22,499 bases of DNA from a virus, in IMG/VR virus record IMGVR_UViG_3300047330_000093, positions 1 to 22,499 of that record. One strand, 5' to 3'. Both the position numbers and the translations under genes were made by a program. Numbering within the stretch: position 1 is the first letter of the stretch; every line of letters begins with the position of its first letter. The notes beneath the pieces were generated by a model that made no database searches, had not been told where the DNA came from, and saw only the letters and a list, made by a program, of their open reading frames with translations. This document shows positions 479 to 22,499 of this stretch, in pieces.

Positions 479-994
479 CTAATCCCCAATTATCGCAGCC
501 AGCGCCAGTGCACGACGCGTCCAGCCGAGACCGAAAGTACCCCAGCTTGGCAGATGCGAGGAAAATTCCAGCCGTCGCGCCAAGGCTTCGCGCGCGATCA
601 GTTGCGGATTGCCCATCTTGAGGGCGGCGATCGTGGCATTTCCTAACACGCCGTCAGGATTGGCGCCGGCCGCCAGCTGCAGCCAGGTGATCGACCGGCG
701 GATGCCGGCATTGACCGCGGCATCGAACGCGACGAGAGCCAGCGGAAACGCCAATTCGTCACCGGCAATTTTGTCCCAGTAGTCGCGCCGGTAGATTGCC
801 TCCGCCTCCGCCTGGGTAAGATGCGCGATCTCCAGCGATGGGTAGGCGGCCGCGCTGATGCCAAAATTCGTGCCGCGCAATTCGCCGCTGCCGACGGCGC
901 CGCCTGTCCAATTGCCCGGATCGGCGGCGTTGCTGGAAAAGCCGCCTTCCTGCGCCAACGTGAAGGCGATGCAACGGGTAAAACTATCCATCAT
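479..994 (-). CDS. Endolysin, glycoside hydrolase family 108-type lysozyme
   Basis: This is a muralytic endolysin of about 171 residues, predicted to cleave peptidoglycan glycan strands at the end of infection. The N-terminal half carries the family pattern: a catalytic Glu in AQEGGF (Glu16), then ADPGNWTGG, TNFGIS, an Ala-rich YP segment, LT..EAEAIYRRDYWD, and FDAAVNAG near residues 93-100. The C-terminal half (LQLAAGANPDGVLGNATIAAL onward) matches the peptidoglycan-binding part common in this family. There is no signal peptide, so export must rely on the holin. The gene starts at ATG 994 or ATG 991. The ATG at 994 overlaps the upstream stop as TGATG, and CCAGGA lies about 6 bases before it. 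A longer frame back to 1039 overlaps the upstream gene and was not chosen. Confidence 0.92.
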   Translation of the reverse strand: MMDSFTRCIAFTLAQEGGFSSNAADPGNWTGGAVGSGELRGTNFGISAAAYPSLEIAHLTQAEAEAIYRRDYWDKIAGDELAFPLALVAFDAAVNAGIRRSITWLQLAAGANPDGVLGNATIAALKMGNPQLIAREALARRLEFSSHLPSWGTFGLGWTRRALALAAIIGD

Positions 995-1326
995 CAATGT
1001 CCTGGAAAATGCAGGATATTCGCCGCTAATCCGCCGCATAGCGCGGAGAGCAGGCTAACGATCATGATCGTCACGCGCCGCTCGGCATCGCGCTCGCCGC
1101 CCATGTGCGAAAGTTGCACCCGCAATTCGCTCAAGGCCGCCGTCAGTTCGTCGACCTTGGTGAACAGCTTCGAGAAGACCTGGTCTTCCTGCGACAGATA
1201 GCGCTCGCGCCAGTTCTCCAGCGCGTCCACGCGGGCATCTAGCACCACGTAGTCCTGCCGAAACTTGGCGATGTCGCCACGCATCGCCGCGACATCGGAT
1301 CGCAGCAGCGCAACCTCTGACTCCAT
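994..1326 (-). CDS. XhlA/holin-like coiled-coil protein with one C-terminal membrane segment
   Basis: This 110-residue protein has an N-terminal helical heptad region (about residues 1-75, with repeated ALLRSDVAAMRGDIA-type spacing) and a single hydrophobic segment (about 84-105, RVTIMIVSLLSALCGGLAANIL). That architecture matches XhlA-type haemolysin/holin accessory proteins. It is translationally coupled to the endolysin (TGATG overlap), which supports a role in membrane permeabilisation or endolysin release. The start at 1326 is chosen because AAGGG lies 7 bases upstream. Longer frames run into the palindromic repeat. A structural coiled-coil protein is the alternative. No second multi-pass holin is visible nearby. 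Confidence 0.75.
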   Translation of the reverse strand: MESEVALLRSDVAAMRGDIAKFRQDYVVLDARVDALENWRERYLSQEDQVFSKLFTKVDELTAALSELRVQLSHMGGERDAERRVTIMIVSLLSALCGGLAANILHFPGH

Positions 1327-1633: not shown

Positions 1634-3772
1634 TCAATAAGGCTGGTTGGACAGCGTTATGGGATAGAATGTCGCCTGCAGCGGCATGTTGATCGACCAG
1701 GCGGTGCCGAGATCGCCGGCGATGTCCCAGTTGGCGGGGGGTGGCAGCAGCGAGGCGTTGTCCGTCACCGCGTCGCCGCGGCCGATCTGCGTGCTGCCAT
1801 AGGGGTAGAAGAACAGCGCCTCGGCGGAAGGATTGGTGATGCCAGACGCGAGCGTCACCGAGACATGCGTCGCATCCACCCGCGCCGCCGCGGTCGCGGC
1901 GATGATGTTGCCGGGGCTGGCGACGCTGCCGCCATCCATCACCGCAAAGCCAGCACCATTCTGCGCCTGCAGCGGCACGATCAGGTCGTTTCCGGAATCA
2001 TGCTGGATGGTGAGGATGATGTTCGTGTCGGAGGCGCGATAGACATGCGTGATCAGCGGACCGCCACTTGCAGGCAGCCCGGATGCCGGCAGGGCGCCGG
2101 CGGGGATCGTGTCGCTCAGGCCGCCCGCGATCGCGACGCGGCCGGCGGCGAAGGCCCCGATGCGGCCATAGCGAAGCAGGTCCGGCTGGTCGCGATGCTC
2201 CGGATCGCCGCCGCTGAAAATGCCGGTGGCCGGGTCGTAGCTGGCGTTGAGCGGATTTGAATCGGCCGTCTGCGCGGCGAAGACGGTGATGTTGTTGGCG
2301 GCGACCGCGGCGAGATCGGCGATCGATTCCCGCACCATCTGCACGCCGACATCGGTTTCGTACGGAATGGCGTTCCAGGCGAGCAAGGGCAGCGAGGCGG
2401 CGGTCCGGCCCAGCAGGCTGCGCGTGAGCGAGAGCAACCGCAGTACCGTGCCCTCGTACAAGGACTTGTTGCTGTAGGGCATGGTACTGTCCTGCTCGGA
2501 CCAAGGCCAGACCAGGAAGGCGATATCGGCCTCGTCAAGCGTGGAGACGAGGGCGGAGGCACCGGTCAGATAGTTGGTGAGGGCCGCGAAGTCCGGCCCG
2601 CCGGACCAGGTGGAAGGGTCCGAGCCGTCGCCGGGATTGGTCAGGAATGTACCATTATCGGGACCGGGCGGGAACAGCGGCGGCGAAGAGTTGGATATCG
2701 GGTGGCCGGAGATGATCGAATAGCGCGAGGGCGAGATGTAGGTGCCGGAGGGCAGCCCGTCAAAGGCGTAGGCGGCGGCGCCGAGATACCAGGCGACGCC
2801 CTGCGCCATCGCCAGCGGCGCGCCGGCATTAACGAACCAGGCGGCGTTCGACTGGCCCATGACGAGCACGCTGACGCCGCGCCTGGCGCCCCGCAACCAG
2901 CGCGCCTGCGCGGCAATCAGCGTGCTGATCTCGCCGGCATCCAGCGCCCGTTCCCAGGTGGCGGCCTCGTGGAACCAGCATTGGGCGGAACCCTGGATGC
3001 TGCCGTCGTGCAGAAACAGCACCTGCCCGTTCACGCTCGCGGCGAACGGATTGTTGATGGCGCTGGCCACCTGCACGCCGTCCAGCCAGGCGTCCACGCC
3101 GATATTCGGCGTGTTGCGCAGGATGACGGCATGGGTGTGGCGGCGGGTGATCGTCGTCGAGAGCACCGTCTGGCTGGCGGTGCCGGGAAACAAGGTCAGG
3201 TTGGCGCCGTTGCTGTCCGCGCGCAGCACTGTCGCGCCATTGGCCGTGCAATGCAGCAGCGGGATCGGATCCGCATCGACGTAATACGTACCCTGGCGCA
3301 GATTCGGCCGGGTCCAGACCAGGTAGCGCGTCCAGGCCGCGCCGGCGCCGAGCTCGAAGCCGGGATGCGACAGACCCCAATCCGGATCGAGGCTTGGGCC
3401 ATAGGTGACGATGGTCGGGTCCGGCGCCCCGACGGCGCCGAGATAGCCGTTCACGCGGGCGGTCGCGATCGTGCTTGCGGGGCTTGTGTCGGCGGCGATG
3501 TGATACGGCGCGAGCGCGTTGCCGCCGCCGGATTTGTCCATGACCGAGCCGACGACGGTGTTCGCGGTGGTGACCGGGGCGCCGGTGACGTCGAGCAGGC
3601 CGGCGAGCAGCCCGGCATCCCACCAGCCGGACAGGCCGGAAATGTCGGACGGGAACGGGCCAGAGAACAAAGATGCAGCCGGCGTGCTGCCGGGCGCCAG
3701 CGCGCTGACCAGGGCGCGCGCATTGACGCCGGTGAGCAGCGGCGCGCCAGGGGAGGTGAAAAGGAACGCCAC
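1634..3772 (-). CDS. Tail-associated LamG + SGNH/GDSL-type carbohydrate esterase
   Basis: This 712-residue protein begins at a GTG immediately after the upstream TGA (TGAGTG), with no clear ribosome-binding site, which suggests coupled translation. Residues ~40-292 look like a LamG/concanavalin-like beta-sandwich (HAVILRN, VDAWLDGVQV, VLFLHDG, ending in the family-typical WERALDAGEISTLIA). Residues ~298-550 look like an SGNH hydrolase related to sialate/acetylxylan esterases: VLVMGQSNA (nucleophile Ser308), VWPWSEQDS (residues 421-429, corresponding to the WxxGExD block, with Ser in place of Gly), and GDPEH (Asp523, His526, the DxxH block). About 160 C-terminal residues are probably beta-rich. 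The inferred role is removal of acetyl or similar esters from a host surface polysaccharide during adsorption. Confidence 0.82.
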   Translation of the reverse strand: MAFLFTSPGAPLLTGVNARALVSALAPGSTPAASLFSGPFPSDISGLSGWWDAGLLAGLLDVTGAPVTTANTVVGSVMDKSGGGNALAPYHIAADTSPASTIATARVNGYLGAVGAPDPTIVTYGPSLDPDWGLSHPGFELGAGAAWTRYLVWTRPNLRQGTYYVDADPIPLLHCTANGATVLRADSNGANLTLFPGTASQTVLSTTITRRHTHAVILRNTPNIGVDAWLDGVQVASAINNPFAASVNGQVLFLHDGSIQGSAQCWFHEAATWERALDAGEISTLIAAQARWLRGARRGVSVLVMGQSNAAWFVNAGAPLAMAQGVAWYLGAAAYAFDGLPSGTYISPSRYSIISGHPISNSSPPLFPPGPDNGTFLTNPGDGSDPSTWSGGPDFAALTNYLTGASALVSTLDEADIAFLVWPWSEQDSTMPYSNKSLYEGTVLRLLSLTRSLLGRTAASLPLLAWNAIPYETDVGVQMVRESIADLAAVAANNITVFAAQTADSNPLNASYDPATGIFSGGDPEHRDQPDLLRYGRIGAFAAGRVAIAGGLSDTIPAGALPASGLPASGGPLITHVYRASDTNIILTIQHDSGNDLIVPLQAQNGAGFAVMDGGSVASPGNIIAATAAARVDATHVSVTLASGITNPSAEALFFYPYGSTQIGRGDAVTDNASLLPPPANWDIAGDLGTAWSINMPLQATFYPITLSNQPY

Positions 3773-5929
3773 TCAGCTGACCGTAAGGGTAAAGGTGGAG
3801 ACGGTCTGGCTGTCGCCAGCGGCGGTTTCGACCCACACATAGTAGTCGCCCGGCGCCGCCGGCGTCGGGTAGTAGATCGCCCACATCGAGTTATTGTTGA
3901 TGACAAGCGCCGACTGCCACCCGGTCGTCGGGGCGACCGTGCCGGATGTCGAAAGCGCGACCTGGGTGGCAATCGACTGGGGAGGCGAGATGCCGCCATT
4001 GATCCCGATGCTGCCGACACCGTGGGTATTCGTGCCACCCGGATTGTTGACGCTGTAAATGCCGCCGGCCTGGGCAGCCAACGTGATGGCGCCGGAGACG
4101 GCGGTCAGGCCGCTCGCGGCATCCTGAGCCCAGACATAATAGGTGCCGGCCGCCACCGGCGTCAGCGACGCCGCAAAACTGCCCGAATTGGTTACGGCCG
4201 CCGTCCATCCCGATGCGGGCGCGGTTTCGTTCTGCGTCGCAAGGGCAACATTCACGGCGTCCGCCGCCGGGCTGACCGTGCCCGTAATGGCGAGGGCAGA
4301 GCCGGCCGTGCCGGTCGCCGGCGCGCTGACGGTCAGCGCCGCGGTAACGACGCTGATCGCCGAGGAAATCACCTGAACGGACCTATCGGAGGTCTGCCGC
4401 GCCCAGATATAGATCATCTCCGCCGCTTCCGGGGTCAGGCTGGCAGTCCAGCCGCTGCCGGTCACCGTGCCCGCAACCCAGCTCGCCGGCGCCGCCGTCG
4501 CGCTGCTCGAATACCCAACCTCCACGGCGGCGCCGTCGGGCGAAACCGTCCCCGCGACCGCAATCGCCGCCCCCAGCGTGACGCTGGCAGGCAGCGCGTC
4601 AATACCAACTGAGGGCGGAATGATGGTAAAGGCGTTCGAGACGCCGAGCACCGCCGGGTTGGCGTGGTCACGCACCTGCACCGTGTACGTGCCGGCGGCC
4701 AGACCGGGCATCGTGAAGCTATAAGCGTTGGCGGTGATCACCGGGCCGGAGACCTCGCTCCAGCTCAAGCCGCCATTGCTGGAAACATCCAGCGCGGTCG
4801 GCGCGTCGTTGAAAATGCCGCCTGTCACGGTGAAGGCCGCCCCGGGCGCCGGGGCTGAGATCGACGCCACCGTCAAGGTCGGCGCATTCGGCACAATGCC
4901 GCTCCACCACACAAGCGAGCCGCCCGAATAGGTTATGCCAACCAGGCTCGTCGACCCGCCAGGCGGCAGCACCGTGCCGCCTGAGCCCGACGTGATGCCT
5001 GTGCCCATGGTGACGGACCCGGCGCTGAGATTGATCAGCGTGCAGGAAAAACCGGAGCCCATATTGGCGAAATTCGCGGTCAGCGTGATCGGCTGGCTGG
5101 CCACCAGCAGCCGGTCGTTATGCGCGGTCGCGTCCAGCACCGTGTTGCTGGTAAGCTCGACGACATCGGTCTTCAGGCTGGGGATCTTGGCCTGCAGATA
5201 GGTCCAGATCGCGCCGAAACTCTGCACGTTCAGCGACGAACTGCCTTGCGCGACCAGCAACGTATCGCTGTCGGCGGCGGGCGAAGCGGCCGGCAACTGG
5301 TTGATCGTCTGGCCGCCGATCAACTGGCCATAAGGGATCCAGGCATTCGCGCCGTTCTGCCAGATGGCGACGTAATCTGAAGCGCCGATGGCGCTGACCG
5401 CCGTCTCGGTGCCCGGCGCAAGCAGCCCCTGGCCGGTGGCGCCGGCAGGGCCTTGCGGCCCGGCCGGCCCAGGCGCACCGGTGGGACCTTGCGGACCCGC
5501 CGGACCGGCAATGCCGGATGCCGTGACCGCGATGACCCCGTTGTCATCGATGCTGATGCCGCCGCCGGCGCTGAACAGGCCGCGCAACGCTGTGACCGGC
5601 AGCAGACCAGGCGCCGCATCTGCCTCAATCACCACGCTGTCCGTCAGCGACATTACCGCCTGCACCGGAAACCCGGCATGGTCGCCGCCATTGGCCGCCA
5701 ACATCCCCGCCGCCAGCGCCAGCCCGGTGCCGACGGTCACCGCCTCAGGCGAGCCGGCGCCAACGCTGTTGCGCCCGAGTAGATCGCCACTCGGTACGCT
5801 GATCAGCGGCTGCAAAGTAGCAGTAAGCTGCGAGACGGTAACGGAATAGGTCAGCCCCGCCTGCGACAAAGGCAGCAGATCGCCGGACCCGACCGTCGCG
5901 ACCGGCGGCAGTTGCGCTATGGTTGTCAT
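3773..5929 (-). CDS. Tail fibre with collagen-like segment and four Ig-like domains
   Basis: This is a 718-residue fibre. The N-terminus (TIAQLPPVATVGSGDLLPLSQ) is the short attachment motif seen in many phage fibres, and it recurs at residues 208-230 (TINQLPAASPAADSDTLLVAQG). A collagen-like run of ten Gly-X-Y triplets spans residues 139-168, which usually gives trimeric rod segments. Residues ~255-345 are beta-rich with a WWSG motif. Four Ig-like repeats of about 85-100 residues follow (about 347-437, 438-527, 528-618, 619-718). Domains 2-4 end in related (Y/W)(Y/I)(V/I)WA/VE strands before the next boundary. The ATG at 5929 is the only sensible start. It probably forms a side or long fibre for receptor binding. 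The receptor is unknown. Confidence 0.85.
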   Translation of the reverse strand: MTTIAQLPPVATVGSGDLLPLSQAGLTYSVTVSQLTATLQPLISVPSGDLLGRNSVGAGSPEAVTVGTGLALAAGMLAANGGDHAGFPVQAVMSLTDSVVIEADAAPGLLPVTALRGLFSAGGGISIDDNGVIAVTASGIAGPAGPQGPTGAPGPAGPQGPAGATGQGLLAPGTETAVSAIGASDYVAIWQNGANAWIPYGQLIGGQTINQLPAASPAADSDTLLVAQGSSSLNVQSFGAIWTYLQAKIPSLKTDVVELTSNTVLDATAHNDRLLVASQPITLTANFANMGSGFSCTLINLSAGSVTMGTGITSGSGGTVLPPGGSTSLVGITYSGGSLVWWSGIVPNAPTLTVASISAPAPGAAFTVTGGIFNDAPTALDVSSNGGLSWSEVSGPVITANAYSFTMPGLAAGTYTVQVRDHANPAVLGVSNAFTIIPPSVGIDALPASVTLGAAIAVAGTVSPDGAAVEVGYSSSATAAPASWVAGTVTGSGWTASLTPEAAEMIYIWARQTSDRSVQVISSAISVVTAALTVSAPATGTAGSALAITGTVSPAADAVNVALATQNETAPASGWTAAVTNSGSFAASLTPVAAGTYYVWAQDAASGLTAVSGAITLAAQAGGIYSVNNPGGTNTHGVGSIGINGGISPPQSIATQVALSTSGTVAPTTGWQSALVINNNSMWAIYYPTPAAPGDYYVWVETAAGDSQTVSTFTLTVS

Positions 5930-8636: not shown

Positions 8637-8671
8637 GCGATCGTCCCCAGAAGAGTTAGAAAAAACAGGAA

Positions 8672-8803
8672 GAAAGCGCTTCTTTTTTGAAAAAAAAAGA
8701 AGCAAAAAACTTTCGCTCCTGGGGGCGGCGACGCGCTCGGTGCCACAGCCGGCAGTAAATGAAAGTTTTTTGCTTCTTTTTTTCAAAAAAGAAGCGCTTG
8801 CTT
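8672..8803. repeat. AT-rich nested palindrome, copy 2 (adaptor / spike junction)
   Basis: Left arm 8672-8714 and right arm 8761-8800 are near-perfect inverted copies (AAGCGCTTC, T-run, GA-run, GAAGC, AAAAAACTTT and its complement). Each arm also folds on its own. The spacer of about 46 bases is GC-rich, and its CTCCTGGGGGC and GCAGTAA ends are shared with copy 4. The adaptor's stop codon lies 11 bases beyond the right arm. The spike's start codon lies 36 bases beyond the left arm. Confidence 0.88.
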
Positions 8804-8813
8804 CTTCTTACGT

Positions 8814-11231: not shown

Positions 11232-11249
11232 GCTTGAGCGCGGTTAAAA

Positions 11250-11430
11250 AAAGCACTTCTTTTTTGAAAAAAAGAAGCAAAAAACTTTCGGACTATATCC
11301 ATGTTGGTTTAACCGCCCAAGCCCAATTTAGCAGATGTCCGTTCGTTAGTGCGTTAGCCCGGTCGATGCCAACGCCCGCATTAAACAAAAGTTTTTTGCT
11401 TCTTTTTTTCAAAAAAGAAGCGCTTTCTTG
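11250..11430. repeat. AT-rich nested palindrome, copy 3 (GpJ / GpI junction)
   Basis: Arms at 11250-11288 and 11387-11427 match the family. There is one change in the outer GCGCTT of the left arm, which reads GCACTT. The spacer is the longest of the four (about 98 bases), less GC-rich, and shares only CGCCCGCA-like bases near its right end with the others. The GpJ stop codon (11445-11447) lies just beyond the right arm, and the GpI start is 19 bases beyond the left arm. Confidence 0.87.
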
Positions 11431-11444
11431 CTTTGCTCAGTCGT

Positions 11445-13492: not shown

Positions 13493-14473
13493 TCAATTCA
13501 CCGCGTGGGCACGAACGATCTGCGTAAAACCGCGCCCTGCATCGATCGACCGCCGGATCGTATCGACCATATAGGTCTGGTCGAAAGCCGACTCAGTCTG
13601 GCTCAAGCTGATCGTCGAACCAGGCACCAGCGCCAGCTCGCCCGGCATCCTGGCCACCATGATCGTGCCATGCTGCGCCAGGCCCGCCAGGTGACGGCTG
13701 GCAAAATTCATCGCCTGCTGGCTGGTCAGATTGGGCCGGATCAGCGTAGTGCTAAGTCCCTGGCCCAACCCGGCCGTCTGCGTCACGACCGTCTTGTTGC
13801 GCGTATTCCAGGATTTCACCGTCGCGGTCCCCGGTATGGCGGTTGCGCTGTCCAGGATCAGCTCCATGCAATCAGCCGGCGTCAGAGACAGCGACGGGGC
13901 ACTCGGCGCCGGCCCAAAATTCAACGTCGCGCCAGTAACGGAGAGCGAAAACCCCTCGATCAGCGCAAGCCAACAAAGCAAATTCCACTCGGTACCGGCG
14001 CGCGAGTTCAGCCCCAGCGCGCTCCTGGCATGGTCAAGATCGTAATACTGCCCGACCGGCGTACTGGTCGCTGTCACATTCGCCGTCAAACCATGCCGCG
14101 CGGCAATCGTTGCGGCAATCTGGCTCGCGGTCTGGTTGGCGAATGTCTCGGCGATCTCGGTATCGATCAACCTGGCCGACAAATCCCGCCCGGTCAGCGT
14201 CGCCGTGTTCTGCAACAGGTCGAGCCGGATGTTGTCCACCTGGCCGGTCAACACACTCACAAACCCGCCAGGTAGCAACGCCAGCTCGATTGCCACCGTC
14301 TGCGCGCCCAAGGATGCGAAATAGGCCGCACCCGCGGCTGAGCCCCCAATCGCAAACTTAACCACGAACCGGTCCGCCGCAAAATAAGCGACCTGCTCGA
14401 TCTCGACCGACACCGCGCCCGCAATTGCCGCCCCGCCGATGCTGACCTGGACTTGCGGCTGATTAACTTGCAA
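13493..14473 (-). CDS. D: Baseplate hub, phage late control protein D-like
   Basis: This 326-residue protein occupies the hub position. In P2-type phages the equivalent protein forms the trimeric hub that holds the spike and caps the tube. Features include tandem beta domains (YFAADRFVVKFAIG, VAIELALLPGGFVSVLTGQVDNI), the segment GRDLSARLIDTEIAETFANQTASQIAATIAARHGL (residues ~94-128), and EWNLLCWLALIEGFSLSVTG (~162-181), all typical of GpD. The start appears to be TTG at 14473, overlapping the end of the LysM gene by 11 bases, with a GGGGGC tract a little upstream. Later GTG codons would remove the first beta strand. A VgrG-like reading is equivalent. Confidence 0.88.
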   Translation of the reverse strand: MQVNQPQVQVSIGGAAIAGAVSVEIEQVAYFAADRFVVKFAIGGSAAGAAYFASLGAQTVAIELALLPGGFVSVLTGQVDNIRLDLLQNTATLTGRDLSARLIDTEIAETFANQTASQIAATIAARHGLTANVTATSTPVGQYYDLDHARSALGLNSRAGTEWNLLCWLALIEGFSLSVTGATLNFGPAPSAPSLSLTPADCMELILDSATAIPGTATVKSWNTRNKTVVTQTAGLGQGLSTTLIRPNLTSQQAMNFASRHLAGLAQHGTIMVARMPGELALVPGSTISLSQTESAFDQTYMVDTIRRSIDAGRGFTQIVRAHAVN

Positions 14474-14651
14474 TGCCGCCGCCAGCCCCCGGATTCACCG
14501 GCGGGATGATGAGGGTTGTCAATCCGACCAGTTGCGAGTCCGAGAGTCCGTTGGCCTGTGCAATCCGGATCCATTGCGTTGCATCATTCAGATATTGCGC
14601 CGCAAGCGCGAACAGATTGCCGCCGACGACGGTGATCGTTTGCGTGGTCAT
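14463..14651 (-). CDS. LysM-domain tail protein, GpX-like
   Basis: This small protein of 62 residues is little more than one LysM domain (TITVVGGNLFALAAQYLNDATQWIRIAQANGL, then a LTTLIIPP end). Its position between GpU-like and GpD-like genes is that of P2 gpX, a small LysM tail protein thought to help assemble or stabilise the hub. It overlaps the upstream gene by 4 bases (ATGA) and the downstream one by 11. There is no signal peptide or catalytic domain, so peptidoglycan binding, if any, would be structural. Confidence 0.87.
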   Translation of the reverse strand: MTTQTITVVGGNLFALAAQYLNDATQWIRIAQANGLSDSQLVGLTTLIIPPVNPGAGGGIAS

Positions 14652-15346
14652 GTCAGCTCATTCGCCATGTTGGTCGCCGCCCGATTGAGGAAGCCCGTCA
14701 TTCCGGACAACGCCGCAAGCTGGCCGGACGAAGCAACCACTTGCGCCAGCCCGCCAATTGCCGCCGGCGCATCAATGGCCGTATTCAACAACCCGACGCC
14801 GCTCTTCAACGCAACATTCGCGGTCGCCAGACCGGTCGAGACGACGGCCTGCGCGCCACTCAAACTGGCCATGCTCGCGGCTCCGGCAAGCGGCAATGAA
14901 ATGCCGGCCTGCGGTGCCAGCGCGACCGCTGACGCTATGTCATTGGCGATCAACGTGGTCACCGACGATACCGCTGATGCGATTTCCGCCACCGGATCGA
15001 TCACCACGACGCAGCTGATCGTAAATGGTATCCACCAAGGCTTTTCGTAGCTCGCCGAAAACGCCCCGATGACGACCGTATAGAAGAAACTGTCCCAGAA
15101 CAGCGGAAGCTGCGCGCCCAGTGCCGTTGCCGCGTCGAGAGTCTGTGCCCGCGCTGCCGCATCGCCGCCAGAAAAGACGCCGGAAAAACTGATCTTCGCC
15201 GGGGCATCACCAAGCGCATCCACGACACGGCCACCGCCGATCAATTGATGCACCGCGATGCGCTGCGCGCCGCCGAGCGCAATCTTTTCCGGGACTTCAA
15301 AGTCCTGAAACGTCACAGTCCCAAGTGTGATGACAACGTTGCCCAT
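14648..15346 (-). CDS. GpU / DNA-circularisation-N-like tail-baseplate protein with long C-terminal tail
   Basis: This is a 232-residue protein. The N-terminal ~115 residues (VITLGTVTFQDFEVPEKIALGGAQRIAVHQ, then RVVDALGDAPAKISFSGVFSGGDAAARAQTL, then LPLFWDSFFYTVVIGAFSAS) have the strand pattern of P2 GpU. They also resemble the N-terminus of Mu-type circularisation/baseplate hub proteins. The remaining ~115 residues are Ala/Ser/Val/Leu-rich helix-forming repeats without charged residues, which is unusual for GpU. Its neighbours (tape-measure slot, then LysM and hub) put it at the tube-baseplate interface. It starts two bases after the upstream TAG. Confidence 0.72.
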   Translation of the reverse strand: MGNVVITLGTVTFQDFEVPEKIALGGAQRIAVHQLIGGGRVVDALGDAPAKISFSGVFSGGDAAARAQTLDAATALGAQLPLFWDSFFYTVVIGAFSASYEKPWWIPFTISCVVVIDPVAEIASAVSSVTTLIANDIASAVALAPQAGISLPLAGAASMASLSGAQAVVSTGLATANVALKSGVGLLNTAIDAPAAIGGLAQVVASSGQLAALSGMTGFLNRAATNMANELT

Positions 15347-15348
15347 CG

Positions 15349-16236
15349 CTACCCCGGAATTTGCAACCCAGCCCAGGCCGGGCTGAGCCGCGGATCAAAG
15401 CCCGTCATGCCAGAAGGCGGCAGCCGCGACTGTCGGGCGAGATAGTCATCGATGGCGCGATCAAGTCGCATCGCCGAAAGCTGCCCATCGGCCACCCCGT
15501 TCCCCGCCTCCGGCAAAACCGTGGCAGCAGAATTTGTATTCTCTCTGTTAGCAGGCGCGGGCGCCGCGCCCTGCGCGACTGGGCGCAACGGCCGGGTCAC
15601 CGCAAAATTTGACGGCGCCGACAACGCCGGCGTCAAAGCAGAGACCGAAGCTTGACTCTCGCGCGGCCTCCGGACCGGTGCCAGGCGTGGCAGGGTTCCA
15701 AGTCGCGCCCGCCGAAAACTTTCACCGCCGTTCGCAGCGAGATCGGGCCCGCGACGCGTCTGCAGGCTCAGGGCGCCAGCGCCGCGCCGCACGCGTTTCC
15801 CCCGCGTCTGAAATCCGCACAGGCCCCTCGCCACGTTCATACCAATCGCAACGAATTGGTAAAAACGAGATTCCGGCGCCTCGCGCGGCCAAATGAACAT
15901 CCGGCTTCGGCCAGCGGGCGCTGCGAACGCCAACAGGCGCGCCGTTCCCTGCGGATTCACACCGGATCCGGCGTAAACGGACCGTGCAGTAAGCCAAACT
16001 GCCGCACCACAAGACTGCCGTGCGATCGCAGCCGCGGCTGATCCCGGCGAAAACCGCCTTGTCGCCGCAGCGGCACTTACACCGGCTGCAAAATTTATTC
16101 TTCTAAGAGGCGTCGTCTTATGCACCGCCCTTCGCAGGACCGGCGCCACGGAAACCCGGCCTTCACCAGCAATGGCAAGCGCAGCCCGGTACACAGCAGG
16201 CCGGCGAATCAACCAAGAATGATTCATCTCAGCCAT
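15349..16236 (-). CDS. Unusual ~295-residue protein in the tape-measure slot
   Basis: The gene lies between the GT chaperone and the GpU-like gene, where contractile-tail phages encode the tape measure, but its frame is only about 295 residues. Possible starts are TTG 16239, ATG 16236 and ATG 16227. None has a convincing ribosome-binding site. The first ~230 residues are Arg/Ala/Pro-rich with no visible heptads or membrane helices. Rarer codons (AGA, AGA, ATA in a row near residue 45) make it look unlike its neighbours. The last ~45 residues (LDRAIDDYLARQSRLPP, FDPRLSPAWAGLQIPG) look like a genuine conserved end. It may be a very short tape measure, a remnant of a deleted one, or an unrelated protein. 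Confidence 0.5.
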   Translation of the reverse strand: MAEMNHSWLIRRPAVYRAALAIAGEGRVSVAPVLRRAVHKTTPLRRINFAAGVSAAAATRRFSPGSAAAAIARQSCGAAVWLTARSVYAGSGVNPQGTARLLAFAAPAGRSRMFIWPREAPESRFYQFVAIGMNVARGLCGFQTRGKRVRRGAGALSLQTRRGPDLAANGGESFRRARLGTLPRLAPVRRPRESQASVSALTPALSAPSNFAVTRPLRPVAQGAAPAPANRENTNSAATVLPEAGNGVADGQLSAMRLDRAIDDYLARQSRLPPSGMTGFDPRLSPAWAGLQIPG

Positions 16237-16698
16237 CAACCCAACCCAGCCGCCGCCAGTCGAATGTCAGCCCGTCCAATTGCCCGAATACCACAACATA
16301 GGCCATGCGTTCGTCATCATCCAACCGGCAGGCCACATCGTAAGGCACCCCACACTTCACCAGATACAAGCAGTCGATCAGCCCAGGGTGCCGGCTCAGT
16401 TTCCCGCGTGCGCGACCACGTTGTCCAGCGGCGTCGGCGCAATCGCTGCGGCGACTGCGCTCGCACCATCCTCACCTAGGCGCTCCAGCACAGTCTCAAC
16501 ACCGGCCTCACTGCCGGGGAACGGCATCGGCACGCCATCCAGCACCGCGACGGAAGCCGCAATAGTCGCGAGCCCCATATACGCCTCGTTCACGGAAAGC
16601 TCCGGCCCCAGCGCCTTGTACAGCCGCAGCGTCTCCAACACGCCCACGCGCCGCAACGAAAGTGCGCGCCCAGCCCTGTCCGTAATGATCCGCTCCAT
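16229..16698 (-). CDS. Tail-assembly chaperone GT, made by -1 frameshift
   Basis: The second reading frame (16399 down to the TGA at 16229-16231) has no start codon before the junction, so it must be read by frameshift from the G frame. It adds 56 residues (LSRHPGLIDCLYLVKCGVPYDV to the end FDWRRLGWVDG), giving a ~156-residue fusion. The slippery heptamer GGGAAAC is at 16399-16405, directly before the G stop codon. In lambda and P2 (gpG/GT, E/E') such fusions recruit tube subunits to the tape measure and are absent from the virion. The gene overlaps the tube gene's stop codon and runs a few bases into the next open frame. Confidence 0.88.
16396..16698 (-). CDS. Tail-assembly chaperone G (short product)
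   Basis: This is the unshifted product of about 100 residues, starting at ATG 16698 (TGATG overlap with the tube gene). A GTG three bases earlier is also open. It is mainly helical (ALSLRRVGVLETLRLYKALG, YMGLATIAASVAVLDGVPMPFP, GVETVLERLGEDGASAVAAAI). This fits tail-assembly chaperones encoded between tube and tape measure in the lambda G or P2 E position. It ends in VVAHAGN, with the TGA immediately after the slippery site. The known role of the family is to keep the tape measure soluble and ready for tube assembly, in a fixed ratio with the GT product. Confidence 0.85.
   Translation of the reverse strand: MERIITDRAGRALSLRRVGVLETLRLYKALGPELSVNEAYMGLATIAASVAVLDGVPMPFPGSEAGVETVLERLGEDGASAVAAAIAPTPLDNVVAHAGN
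16399..16405 (-). promoter_or_regulatory. -1 ribosomal frameshift site GGGAAAC
   Basis: On the minus strand the heptamer G-GGA-AAC fits X XXY YYZ in the G frame. The G-frame stop TGA follows directly. Slippage moves reading to GGG-AAA-CTG and opens the 56-codon extension. An adjacent stem was not clearly resolved by eye, although the following bases (GAGCCGGCACCC then GGGCTGATCG) could pair locally. Confidence 0.88.
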
Positions 16699-17126
16699 CA
16701 CACGCTCACGCGGCTGGAGGCGAAAAAATCCAACAGCTGCGCGACCGGCGCATCACCCTTATAGGCCCCCGCCGATGTCAGCTTGAACACGACACCGCTG
16801 AACTGAAAGGTCGACGTCGAACCATCAGGTTCATTAACGTATTGATACAACGTCCCGGCCGCGATCGACTGCCCATTGAAATAGGCCTGCTCGATCGCCG
16901 CGATAAAATCATCCGCCGCCGGCGAGCCGCGATCCAAGGTGAACGTCCCGGTCCAGCCCCGCGGCAGCTCGGCGCCCATTTGCACGCCATCCAGCCGGTC
17001 CACCCGCACCGATTGCGTGACCTGCTTCGCCTCGAAGCCGGTGACATAAGACAGATCAACCCGCCCGAACGGCCCCATCACGACGAGTTGGCAGTCGCTG
17101 CCAACCGAGAATGTATTGAATGGCAT
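16698..17126 (-). CDS. Tail tube protein
   Basis: This 142-residue protein follows the sheath gene and precedes the chaperone, the standard tube position. The sequence is beta-rich: DCQLVVMGPFGRVDLSYVTGFEAKQVTQSVRVDRLDGVQMGAELPRGWTGTFTLDRGSPAADDFIAAIEQAYFNGQ reads as the tube-type sandwich with one central helix. It is followed by strands around YQYVNEPDGSTSTFQFSGVVFKL. A strong GAGGA ribosome-binding site lies 7-8 bases before the ATG but could be sequestered in a hairpin (17133-17157). Subunits stack as hexameric rings around the tape measure inside the sheath. An AT-rich palindrome separates it from the sheath gene. Confidence 0.9.
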   Translation of the reverse strand: MPFNTFSVGSDCQLVVMGPFGRVDLSYVTGFEAKQVTQSVRVDRLDGVQMGAELPRGWTGTFTLDRGSPAADDFIAAIEQAYFNGQSIAAGTLYQYVNEPDGSTSTFQFSGVVFKLTSAGAYKGDAPVAQLLDFFASSRVSV

Positions 17127-17132
17127 TGTCAG

Positions 17133-17157
17133 TTCCTCTAAAACTTCGTTTTAGGAA
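17133..17157 (-). promoter_or_regulatory. Hairpin that could mask the tube gene's ribosome-binding site
   Basis: On the minus-strand RNA, TTCC then TAAAAC (17157-17148) can pair with GTTTTA (17144-17139) and GGAA (17136-17133), with a GAA loop and a two-base bulge. The paired 3' side contains the GAGGAA ribosome-binding site of the tube gene, whose ATG begins 7 bases later. Pairing is visible in the sequence. Any regulatory effect is inference. Confidence 0.4.
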
Positions 17158-17160
17158 GTA

Positions 17161-17287
17161 AGCGCTTCTTTTTTTGAAAAAAAAGAAGCAAAAAAACTTT
17201 TACTCCTGGGGGCTGTGGCACGCCCATGCCAAGGCCCGCAGTAAGCAAAAGTTTTTTGCTTCTTTTTTTCAAAAAGGAAGCGCTTTC
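17161..17287. repeat. AT-rich nested palindrome, copy 4 (sheath / tube junction)
   Basis: Arms at 17161-17200 and 17247-17287 are inverted copies with the family pattern. The right arm has one A-to-G change in its inner hairpin. The 46-base GC-rich spacer shares CTCCTGGGGGC and GCAGTAA with copy 2 and can form its own stem (GGCA/TGCC and GGGC/GCCC). The sheath stop codon (17288-17290) touches the right arm. The tube start is 35 bases beyond the left arm. Confidence 0.88.
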
Positions 17288-18826
17288 CTAAGTCTGCTTG
17301 CTCACCTGCACCGTCTGCCCGCCCTGCACGTTCACGATGAACTTCTCGTTGATCGCCTGGTACCGCACCTGCACATCCGCCTGCACATAGCCAAGCCCGG
17401 TCCGGCTCGACGGATTATTGGAATCATCGCACACCACCGCGAACGGCAGCGACCCGTCGGTGCTGCCAAGCAGCCCCTGGCCCAGCAGCCCATTCAAGAA
17501 CGCCAGCAGCGTCGCGCGGATATTCTGGAACAGCGTCGTATTCACCAGCTGCCCCACATAAGGCCCCATGCCGGCGGACAGAGTGCTGGCGATGTAATTC
17601 GTCAGCCTCGTGTAGTTATCGCCATCGATGGCCGCGTTCGACGACGCGTTATGCCCGCCTCGCACACCCCAGTACGCGCCGCCGGGCTGCGGATTGGCGA
17701 TCACGTCGATCCCCGCGGACAGCAGTGCCGACAGATCGGCCGTCGCATAGGTCGTCGCCGTCCCCCCGCCCGGCTGCCCAGATTTCTGGCTGCCAATCAC
17801 CCCGAACAGCGGCTTGTTCAGCGACGACTGCTCCGGCGACAAATTCGCCAGCCTCCCGCCCACGAAGCCTTGCGGCGATACCAGCCGCGTCAGCTGGTTC
17901 GCCTGATCGTACCAATAGATCCAGTCCCCGAACATCATCTTCGCCGCATAGGTATCGATGCCGGCTTCCGCCTTCACCAGAACCGCATTGGCGATGTTAT
18001 CCCCGGCCGGCCCGGTCAGAATCATGTAAACCGATTCCGACAGCCCGAACGCGACCTGCACGCTCCATTGCGTCGGATCATCCGCATCCGCCAGCAGCGC
18101 GATCGAGCATCCCTGGCCGCGCAACGCATACATACCCTGCCGCGGCAGCGTATCGCTCCCCACCAGAGTCGCGGCGGTGACCGTCGCCGCGCCATCGGTC
18201 CCAGGCGTTCCAGCTGAAAACGGGTAGGTCCCGGCAAGCGGCGTCGCGCCCGAAGATGTCACGGTCGCAGCGACGAGTTGCGACGGGCCGCGCAACGCCC
18301 CGTTGCCTGCATTCACCGCATTCGCCAGATTGCTCCAGAACGCGGCGCCCGAGCCGGTGATGTTGTTGTAAACCTCCGGCGTCTGCCCCGGAAACGCCAC
18401 GGTCAGTTGCCAGGAATTCGCGGCCGACCCCGCCGACAAGGTCAGCGTCAGCTCGTTGCCCAGACTGCCCGTATAAAGCGCGGTGAACGTCACGGCGCCG
18501 AGCAGCGAGACCGAAGCCGCCGTATCCGTCCCATCCGTCGCCCGCACGCAGCGGAAATTTGCCGCCCCTTGCTGCACGGCGGTCGCAACCTGCGTGCCCA
18601 TATCGTATTTGCGCGCCATCACCGGCCCGAACGCCGTGGCGTAGCTTGCCATATCGCTGATGATCGTCGGCTCCCCGACCGGCCCCCAGCTCGCGGTGCC
18701 GACCACGCCCAAAACGTCGGTCGGCACGCCGTTCAGCAGCAGGCTCTGCGGCGGCACAATCTGCACATACAGATCGGGTACGATCAGCGCCGTCGTGTTC
18801 AACGCCCCTGCGGCAAAAACTGGCAT
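17288..18826 (-). CDS. Contractile tail sheath protein
   Basis: This is a 512-residue protein. The start at ATG 18826 is chosen because AAAGGA lies about 8 bases upstream. The frame stays open back to 18853, but that would overlap the previous gene. The N-terminus has the sheath pattern (VPDLYVQIVPPQ, then VLGVVGTASWGPVGEPTIISDMASYATAFG at about residues 38-67). A variable beta domain follows (about 100-225). The conserved C-terminal part contains GDWIYWYDQ, FVGGRLANLSPEQSSLNKPLFGVIG, the AYWGVRGGHNAS segment and a final exchange strand (RYQAINEKFIVNVQGGQTVQV). It polymerises around the tube and contracts to drive the spike, which makes this a myovirus-type particle. Confidence 0.95.
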   Translation of the reverse strand: MPVFAAGALNTTALIVPDLYVQIVPPQSLLLNGVPTDVLGVVGTASWGPVGEPTIISDMASYATAFGPVMARKYDMGTQVATAVQQGAANFRCVRATDGTDTAASVSLLGAVTFTALYTGSLGNELTLTLSAGSAANSWQLTVAFPGQTPEVYNNITGSGAAFWSNLANAVNAGNGALRGPSQLVAATVTSSGATPLAGTYPFSAGTPGTDGAATVTAATLVGSDTLPRQGMYALRGQGCSIALLADADDPTQWSVQVAFGLSESVYMILTGPAGDNIANAVLVKAEAGIDTYAAKMMFGDWIYWYDQANQLTRLVSPQGFVGGRLANLSPEQSSLNKPLFGVIGSQKSGQPGGGTATTYATADLSALLSAGIDVIANPQPGGAYWGVRGGHNASSNAAIDGDNYTRLTNYIASTLSAGMGPYVGQLVNTTLFQNIRATLLAFLNGLLGQGLLGSTDGSLPFAVVCDDSNNPSSRTGLGYVQADVQVRYQAINEKFIVNVQGGQTVQVSKQT

Positions 18827-18830
18827 CGTT

Positions 18831-18971
18831 TCAATCCTTTCCGGCGGTGACACGCACGACGAAGCCGGCCTGCGGACCGGCCAAAATCTTCTGCACGGCG
18901 GCGGCGTCCTTGATCACGTCGCCGCGCCGGAAACCCTCGAAGGGCTTCAGCACCACCAACTGATATGTCAT
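18831..18971 (-). CDS. 46-residue protein between tail terminator position and sheath
   Basis: This short frame begins at ATG 18971 with AGAGGGA about 8 bases upstream and ends 4 bases before the sheath start codon. It reads as a compact beta-rich domain (MTYQLVVLKPFEGFRRGD, then KILAGPQAGFVVRVTAG) and has normal codon use. I do not recognise a family. Mu-like phages also carry a tiny gene (the gp38 position) just before the sheath gene, so it may be a conserved small tail protein. Tight spacing on both sides and a good ribosome-binding site support that it is real. Confidence 0.75.
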   Translation of the reverse strand: MTYQLVVLKPFEGFRRGDVIKDAAAVQKILAGPQAGFVVRVTAGKD

Positions 18972-21176: not shown

Positions 21177-22499
21177 TTAACCGATATGCTCGATCATTAC
21201 CGCGCGCTTGTAATTCGCGTTGGTCGCCGTCGGCACCGTCGTCGGCGTGGTCGTGGTGTCAGACGGCGCGCAAAACCCGCCGATCCAGTACCAGCTCTGC
21301 GCGATGATCTGCTGCAGCCGGTCGATCGGCTCGCGCGTCACCATCGCCACATTGTCGATCACGTTCACCAGGCTGTCCTTCGGCGCCACATCATCCGCCG
21401 CCATGCCGGCAAAATCTCCCTCGATCAGCGCGCCCTGCCCGCAAACGATCGGCCGGCGCACATACAATCCAGAGATCGACGGATGGCTCTGAACATACGC
21501 CTCCGTCGTCGTGATGAAGCGCAGGCCGAGAAAATCGCTCACCATCCCCTGCCGGAACACCGGATTGGACGAGGTCGCGCCCTGGAACAGTTGCTTGAAG
21601 TCCGGATCGGCAAACAACTGCCGCGCCGAAACCGGATCGAGATAGCAATTATACACGCCATCCACCAGCGGCACGGCATTGCGCCGCAACAGGGCCACCG
21701 CATCCAACAGATTGCCCATCGCCAGCGTATCGGTCGCCTGCAGCGCGGCAGTCGTCGCGCGCCCCGCCGGCCGCACGATTGAGCTCGCCGTCGCCGCGAT
21801 CACCGCATTGCCCGCTGTGCCATCCGCCACGCTGACATTGCTCGCAAACAGCAGCGCCCCGGAAATTCCGTCCGGCGCCGTCGACACGTTCGTCGCATCC
21901 GGCGTCACGCCGATCACGCTATAAACACCGCCATTGACAGTAACGGTCAGCGGATAGGTGTTCGACACGCTCTGCTGCACGCCATTGACGAACACCATCT
22001 GAAATCCACGGACATCGTCAACCTCGACGCTCGGCCCCGCCGACGTCAGCGTGGTGATCACCCTGGTATTGCCGCCGAAATAGGGCGCGAACAATGCGTT
22101 GCGCGCCAGTTCGTCCAGGCTCCGCGCCGCCTGCTCCCCATTCGTCGCCGCATTCTGCAGGAACTGCGAGGCGATGCCGACACGGCTCGTCACCATGTTC
22201 AAATCCTGCGTCGCCGCATAGAAATTCAGCGTAATCGTGTACTGCTCCACGCCCCAGCTCGTGCTGGTCAGCCCGTTATCCAGATTGGTGTTGCTCGCAG
22301 CCGCCAACGGCACCGTCACGCTCGGCTTCAACCCGGCCCGCGTCTTCGTCAACGTCTCGCCGATGCCGACAGAAAACTCTTCACGATCGGCAATCAACCG
22401 ATACCCCAGCCGCGATTTGAGCGACATCTCGAACTCGCGCTCAAGAAATCCCTGCTGGATAATCGGCTGCAACGCAGCCGGAAAATTCTGAATACCCAT
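21177..22499 (-). CDS. Major capsid protein (HK97-like fold, N4-gp56-like)
   Basis: This is a 440-residue frame with an ATG at the last base of the window. The N-terminal motif (GIQNFPAALQPIIQQGFLEREF) suggests a true start, but the window edge prevents a check for upstream codons or a ribosome-binding site. Features fitting HK97-fold capsid proteins are an N-terminal helix, a beta-rich arm (VGIGETLTKTRAGL), and a C-terminal segment with VDGVYNCYLDPVSARQLFADPDFKQLF, then FRQGMVSDFLGLRFITTTEAYVQ. These resemble the P-domain of N4-gp56-type capsid proteins. The insertion around residues 165-225 is beta-rich (NGVQQSVSNTYPLTVTVNGG). Sitting first before connector and tail genes, it is the main shell protein. 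Portal, protease and terminase genes would lie beyond the window. Confidence 0.8.
   Translation of the reverse strand: MGIQNFPAALQPIIQQGFLEREFEMSLKSRLGYRLIADREEFSVGIGETLTKTRAGLKPSVTVPLAAASNTNLDNGLTSTSWGVEQYTITLNFYAATQDLNMVTSRVGIASQFLQNAATNGEQAARSLDELARNALFAPYFGGNTRVITTLTSAGPSVEVDDVRGFQMVFVNGVQQSVSNTYPLTVTVNGGVYSVIGVTPDATNVSTAPDGISGALLFASNVSVADGTAGNAVIAATASSIVRPAGRATTAALQATDTLAMGNLLDAVALLRRNAVPLVDGVYNCYLDPVSARQLFADPDFKQLFQGATSSNPVFRQGMVSDFLGLRFITTTEAYVQSHPSISGLYVRRPIVCGQGALIEGDFAGMAADDVAPKDSLVNVIDNVAMVTREPIDRLQQIIAQSWYWIGGFCAPSDTTTTPTTVPTATNANYKRAVMIEHIG

Follow-up and report, generated by a model that had tools for sequence, protein, structure and literature searches.

A C-terminal tag homologous to tape-measure proteins and exchangeable effector domains in a family of contractile phage cassettes

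The cassette and its slot gene

The stretch of DNA analysed here (the window) is an entire IMG/VR record of 22,499 bases, in which a contractile-phage cassette extends from capsid to lysozyme on the minus strand; all genes given with coordinates below lie on that strand. The order is capsid, head-tail genes, sheath, tube, chaperone, the gene referred to here as the slot gene, a U-like gene and a LysM-like gene, and the cassette then continues with gpD, gpV, gpW, gpJ, more tail genes, fibres and a GH108 lysozyme. The major capsid protein (21177..22499), which is single copy in genomes of the genus, was matched to the major head protein phrog_1357 (E 2e-34), and the gene suggests that the particle keeps a head. 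Capsid, portal and terminase are all present in the window and conserved in its relatives, so the cassette does not belong with headless systems of the tailocin or eCIS type. The tail sheath (17288..18853), which marks the tail as contractile, matched phrog_23 (E 1e-45). The following conserved gene (16698..17126; phrog_12993, of unknown function in PHROGs, E 2e-37) probably encodes the tail tube, judging from its place after the sheath. The U-like protein (14648..15346; phrog_21362, E 4e-41) is encoded directly 3' of the slot gene and is followed by a small LysM-like baseplate/tube adaptor (14463..14651), which matched the C-terminal part of phrog_21362 (E 2e-14) and, weakly, LysM and the baseplate family phrog_975. 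The baseplate hub gpD (13493..14473) was assigned from the tail protein phrog_52 (E 2e-24) and also matched Phage_GPD at E 4e-5, below the Pfam cutoff, and the GH108 endolysin (479..1039; PF05838, E 2e-20) lies at the cassette 3' end. In the window a palindrome located between genes (AAGCGCTTCTTTTTTGAAAAAAAGAAGCAAAAAACTTT, together with its inverse) occurs four times (341-477, 8664-8809, 11247-11434 and 17153-17289) and breaks up an otherwise tight operon. Long, nested inverted repeats were also seen between two genes at 1337-1637.

The gene upstream of the slot (16396..16701; phrog_20383, of unknown function in PHROGs, E 9e-17) was read as the tail-assembly chaperone G from its position and its frameshift extension. 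A slippery heptamer, GGGAAAC (16399..16405), is the predicted site of -1 frameshifting from G to GT, and the T extension (16229..16405) reads ...GVPYDVACRLDDDERMAYVVVFGQLDGLTFDWRRLGWVDG after the heptamer, its stop overlapping the ATG of the slot gene by 8 nt. The seemingly empty 157 bp 5' of the slot gene contain this extension, which relatives keep even where the slot is empty. The slot gene thus lies at the tape-measure position, with GT and its extension upstream and the U-like, LysM-like and D genes downstream.

As in the original prediction, the space from the chaperone to the U-like gene contains a single long minus-strand frame, the slot gene (15349..16236). It encodes 295 aa from its ATG, or 296 aa from an alternative upstream TTG at 16239. 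The gene was accepted as real because its ATG overlaps the stop of the T extension and because a relative, L004, has the same length without a single indel at 66% nucleotide and 53% protein identity. The dN/dS ratio against L004 was about 0.53 for the whole gene and 0.39 for its C-terminal third (0.07-0.18 for neighbouring genes), and this ratio together with the unchanged length shows that the frame is coding despite its odd codons. The odd codon use itself, also part of the prediction, is real, since GC at codon positions 1/2/3 was 0.67/0.63/0.64 (third position of the neighbours 0.67-0.85) and the codon log-likelihood was -0.12, against +0.11 to +0.43 for the neighbours; coding periodicity was lost over the first ~175 residues. 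The protein (pI 11.9) is rich in Ala (19%), Arg (13%), Gly (9%) and Pro (8%) and has no hydrophobic 19-mer, which agrees with the predicted Arg/Pro-richness and lack of membrane helices. It does not have the character of a long helical or coiled-coil ruler with hydrophobic segments (coiled coil assessed from composition only).

Homology of the slot protein to tape-measure C-termini

It had been suggested that the last ~45 residues of the slot protein were conserved and might be its functional part, and profile searches of the whole protein and of its last 50 residues had been proposed as a check. The whole protein gave nothing significant in Pfam or PHROGs, and sequence searches of Pfam, NCBIfam, PHROGs and the PDB with the slot protein and with the effectors described below returned almost no matches. 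The C-terminal end was informative. Relatives were located by searches with the U-like protein and the slot protein, which gave about a hundred virus loci, and conservation of the last ~45 residues was seen in dozens of them, in agreement with the suggestion that they form the functional part. A profile HMM of this C-terminal tag was built from 30 slot proteins, classical tape measures being left out, and searched against 7,917 ORFs. It matched 31 of 38 ORFs with the tape-measure pattern (E 6e-14 to 2e-4), each match lying 1-6 residues from the C-terminal end, and unrelated matches started only at about E 0.05. The tag of the window copy comprises residues 258-295 (15352..15465; LDRAIDDYLARQSRLPPSGMTGFDPRLSPAWAGLQIPG; alignments A1 and A6). 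The slot protein is therefore homologous to tape-measure proteins over its C-terminal ~40 residues only.

In distant relatives the region holds two genes, a small one ('...PPRPFLA...') and one for a classical tape measure that begins 'MIDAYTIGI' and is about 290-520 aa long there and 600-650 aa in Paraburkholderia-type loci. The clade of the window has neither the small gene nor the 'MIDAYTIGI' N-terminus, and the end '...LPPSGMTGFDPRLSPAWAGLQIPG' is retained. The slot protein is thus not an ordinary tape measure: as had been proposed, the tape measure was cut down or replaced, its C-terminus being kept and its N-terminus gone. The spacing from chaperone to U in relatives varied from 174 to over 4,000 bases, and slot proteins ranged from ~240 to 510 aa even among close relatives whose sheath and tube are near-identical. 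It has been reported that acetic acid bacterial myophages have tails of 156 +/- 6 nm (PMC8566455), a length that could not be linked here to any one tape measure. In the Komagataeibacter phage phiKX1 (L110, 2288-4516), a 742-aa protein was found at the tape-measure position, with several genes between it and U.

Homologues of the slot gene occupy either the corresponding slot or the cassette 3' end. The slot was empty in five viral contigs (L017, L018, L067-L069) and four genomes. The tag-profile search located a tagged gene in these genomes at the cassette 3' end, after the lysozyme, a holin-like gene and a 103-aa gene and before rplT, although in G266 it was seen only as a fragment at a contig edge; the five viral contigs stop short of this site. 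A phage without any tape measure, considered as an explanation of the empty slots, was accordingly rejected for the genomes. Because it is found at the 3' end in genomes with an empty slot, the tagged gene can change place and yet is retained. Of the 38 genomes of the genus, 26 had the tag. With a strict search it was detected in ten of 249 genomes of the family (E-values per genome), with strong matches in five genomes of the genus and weaker ones, at E about 1e-10 to 1e-11, in five outside it.

In Acidocella-type genomes tagged genes also occur away from the cassette. G526 has a naked copy in its cassette and two tagged effectors elsewhere, one of them between polA- and icd-like genes, and each of the two is preceded by a secreted or membrane partner. 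One extra tagged gene was found in G525, one in G513 and three in G516, in which no tube or capsid match was obtained.

Exchangeable effectors and domestication of the cassette

Two short motifs were read from the slot proteins in the linker that precedes the tag. In the window these are SVAPV at residues 29-33 (16138..16152; 'SIAP' or 'GFAPV' in relatives) and LAPVRR at residues 185-190 (15667..15684; 'LPSIAPI' or 'SFAPV' in relatives). In many relatives an N-terminal domain of 200-270 residues sits upstream of the first motif, and one and the same linker and tag is joined to at least six unrelated domains, some of them lysozyme-like. Families F1, F2, F3 and F4 and several single forms (one SleB-like by eye, one SLT-type, and others) were mutually unrelated by BLAST. 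The family as a whole therefore combines a constant carrier with exchangeable toxin-type domains, and the window copy is its effector-less form.

Most effector domains had no family match in Pfam, NCBIfam or the PDB. An SLT domain (PF01464, E 3e-7, above the Pfam cutoff) was found in the effector ORF of L239, a copy that is broken or mis-assembled, since its tag and SLT domain lie in different frames. F2 resembles lysozyme by reading ('RQRESGD...GAYQMG'), a resemblance that no library match confirms. The AlphaFold models of F3 and F1 were poor (pLDDT 35 and 48); with Foldseek the F1 model gave no significant fold match, and several of its sub-threshold matches were lysozyme-like (MltE, goose lysozyme), which is a hint only. 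A search of 200 genomes sampled from the phylum, run without a positive control, did not find the F1 domain.

The effectors are mostly encoded after a gene for a secreted (signal-peptide) or membrane protein, and for three families the partners match the effectors one to one. F2 was always accompanied, at its four loci, by a homologous immunity-like family of ~165 aa (five proteins, two of them in L030), F3 at seven loci by a 226-254-aa family with hydrophobic segments (seven proteins), and F1 at three loci by a 137-aa membrane family (three proteins); a recurring partner family is not shown for F4 and F7. No effector has a hydrophobic segment. As far as gene order and sequence tell, this is the layout of effector-immunity pairs that would act in the periplasm. 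An adjacent, cognate immunity-like gene is thus a feature of the family, and none lies beside the window copy. Sister cassettes swap effector type (F1 in L014 and F3 in L019; F1 in L035 and F3 in L033 and L038), and some have no effector at all.

Other genes were seen around the tagged genes. In L030 two paralogous F2-type immunity-like genes (2869-3929 and 5461-5904) accompany a single effector, and an F1-type immunity-like gene is present without an F1 effector. A ~320-aa phosphodiester-glycosidase (NAGPA) protein lies beside slot effectors in L014 (2884-3852), L019, L035 and L085, the domain having been demonstrated for the L014 copy. In L029 the tagged gene and U are separated by a 373-aa frame (1306-2427) that resembles a pectate lyase by eye.

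A simpler reading would be that the slot gene is a plain short tape measure, its linker and anchoring C-terminus giving a short contractile tail in the way that the Rhodobacter GTA uses a shortened tape measure, and that the effector fusions are ordinary cell-wall hydrolases borne on the tape measure for entry. The place between GT and U, the homologous C-terminus, the modest 290-520 aa of classical relatives and the absence of any indel over 295 codons at 66% identity all agree with it, and tape measures with lytic domains are well known. However, a twofold range of protein lengths alongside near-identical sheaths and tubes is hard to reconcile with a ruler, and neither matching immunity-like genes nor unlinked tagged effector genes would be expected of one. 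We give this reading somewhat less than an even chance.

The cassette occupies a fixed locus. In six genomes (G234, G150, G266, G002, G293 and G197) it adjoins the same MltA, Tim44 and glycosyltransferase genes, and the gene order from XRE regulator to lysozyme is colinear throughout. Protein divergence of the cassette correlates with that of its flanks (Mantel r 0.96, p 0.006). Of 38 genomes of the genus, 24 (one fragment counted) have a single capsid gene at 86-93% identity and two more have a 55-64% relative, while 22 have a single tube gene. Across the family, head, packaging, tail and lysis genes had dN/dS values mostly of 0.05-0.3, pairs including the window among them, which gives no support to the earlier idea of a defective particle. 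Inspection of the ORFs of G004, G234 and G150 revealed no integrase. One member of the cassette family (L061) is an Acidocella record. The cassette is thus domesticated in six genomes of the genus, with a fixed locus, vertical inheritance and purifying selection. Since the window is a metagenomic virus record with neither an effector nor host flanks, its own domestication is presumed from its relatives. The original prediction did not extend to this domestication, to the swapped effector domains and matching immunity-like genes, or to the ability of the gene to sit elsewhere.

These data also bear on whether the slot effector might be the entry muramidase of a still infectious phage and its secreted neighbour an inhibitor made by the lysogen for superinfection exclusion, as with gp5 and Sp of T4. 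The lysozyme-like F2 and SLT-type effectors with their secreted partners are what such a phage could carry, and several relatives are virus-catalogue contigs. An infectious prophage is argued against in the genomes examined because the locus is fixed and co-diverges with conserved host flanks and no integrase was seen, and orphan effector-immunity pairs outside the cassette also speak against this explanation, which we consider unlikely. A decaying tape-measure pseudogene in a dying prophage, to which the odd codon use, the lost periodicity and the dN/dS of 0.53 might point, is highly improbable in view of the absence of indels and stops at 34% nucleotide divergence, the conserved motifs and tag, the purifying selection on all other genes and the presence of a tagged gene in 26 of the 38 genus genomes.

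Proposed function and related systems

Taken as a whole, the data are probably best explained if a tape-measure C-terminus became the tag by which polymorphic cell-wall effectors are loaded into a domesticated contractile particle, the window showing the effector-less form. The C-terminus of a tape measure is expected at the baseplate hub, and the conserved tag, as the old tape-measure end, would recruit its protein into the tail tube there during assembly with the help of the GT chaperone, the disordered linker filling the tube lumen. In related cassettes tag and linker would carry one of several N-terminal cell-wall-targeting domains, the matching secreted or membrane immunity protein being encoded next to the effector, and in some genomes further tagged effectors would be supplied in trans. 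Contraction would then eject the tagged protein and bring its N-terminal domain into the periplasm of a target cell, so that non-kin cells may be killed. The machine would be a vertically inherited, capsid-bearing, GTA-like cassette of Acidocella-type Acetobacteraceae, and the window copy may act as a minimal tape measure or as a plug without cargo. More tentatively, and as a possibility rather than a probability, the cassette could be a domesticated, GTA-like phage that packages DNA and also serves as an antibacterial injection system, its transferable tag loading immunity-matched cell-wall effectors, encoded in the cassette or elsewhere, into the tail tube.

Several known systems share parts of this design. 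RcGTA is a domesticated, single-locus, vertically inherited phage cassette under purifying selection, with a short tape measure and a non-contractile tail. The present cassette resembles it in its single locus, vertical inheritance and purifying selection on head and tail genes, whereas its tail is contractile and its effectors are tagged; genes for terminase, portal and capsid are present here. We know of no tagged effector-immunity repertoire in RcGTA. The gp5 lysozyme of T4 is a tail-delivered cell-wall hydrolase with a periplasmic inhibitor, Sp, but its carrier is a hub lysozyme that is not derived from a tape measure and is not polymorphic like the present family. MuF toxins are borne on a capsid-associated carrier, the MuF protein, with the toxin at the C-terminal end, a polarity opposite to that of the present family. 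These polymorphic toxins are associated with temperate phages and with immunity genes (PMC5576092), and they share toxin-type domains and immunity-type genes with the present family.

Closer precedents come from actinobacteria. In the Streptomyces davawensis CIS, the tape-measure-related protein Tme is an effector of the contractile system with an enzymatic end (PMC11126660). Tme is a large protein with DUF4157 and transmembrane helices, its functional domain is C-terminal and its CIS is headless (PMC11126660), whereas the present family has its functional domain at the N-terminus and the tape-measure part as the C-terminal tag, and retains capsid and terminase. The Sle1-type effectors of actinobacterial SLP/CIS are likewise tape-measure-related and reconfigurable, and one has an adjacent immunity gene; they have an N-terminal coiled coil from the tape measure, a DUF4157 partner and a C-terminal functional part in a headless CIS, and a C-terminal tag common to trans-encoded effectors, such as the present family has, is not described in the text consulted (PMC13277306). 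Tme and Sle1 are thus the closest precedents, and the present family is set apart by its opposite polarity, its capsid-bearing carrier and its unlinked tagged genes.

A limited literature search found no such GTA-like domesticated element for Acetobacteraceae, nor GTAs with tape measures there. To our knowledge, cargo loading into contractile tails is still poorly understood. If the proposed reading is true, a short C-terminal tag common to tape measures and trans-encoded effectors would be a simple loading rule for such tails, and the domesticated phages would gain a contractile GTA-like member, inherited vertically and keeping its capsid, in Acetobacteraceae. Kin discrimination is predicted for acidophilic bacteria from the effector-immunity pairs, and the three forms of the tagged gene (naked, effector-bearing and relocated) would provide a natural series for how much tape measure a tail needs.
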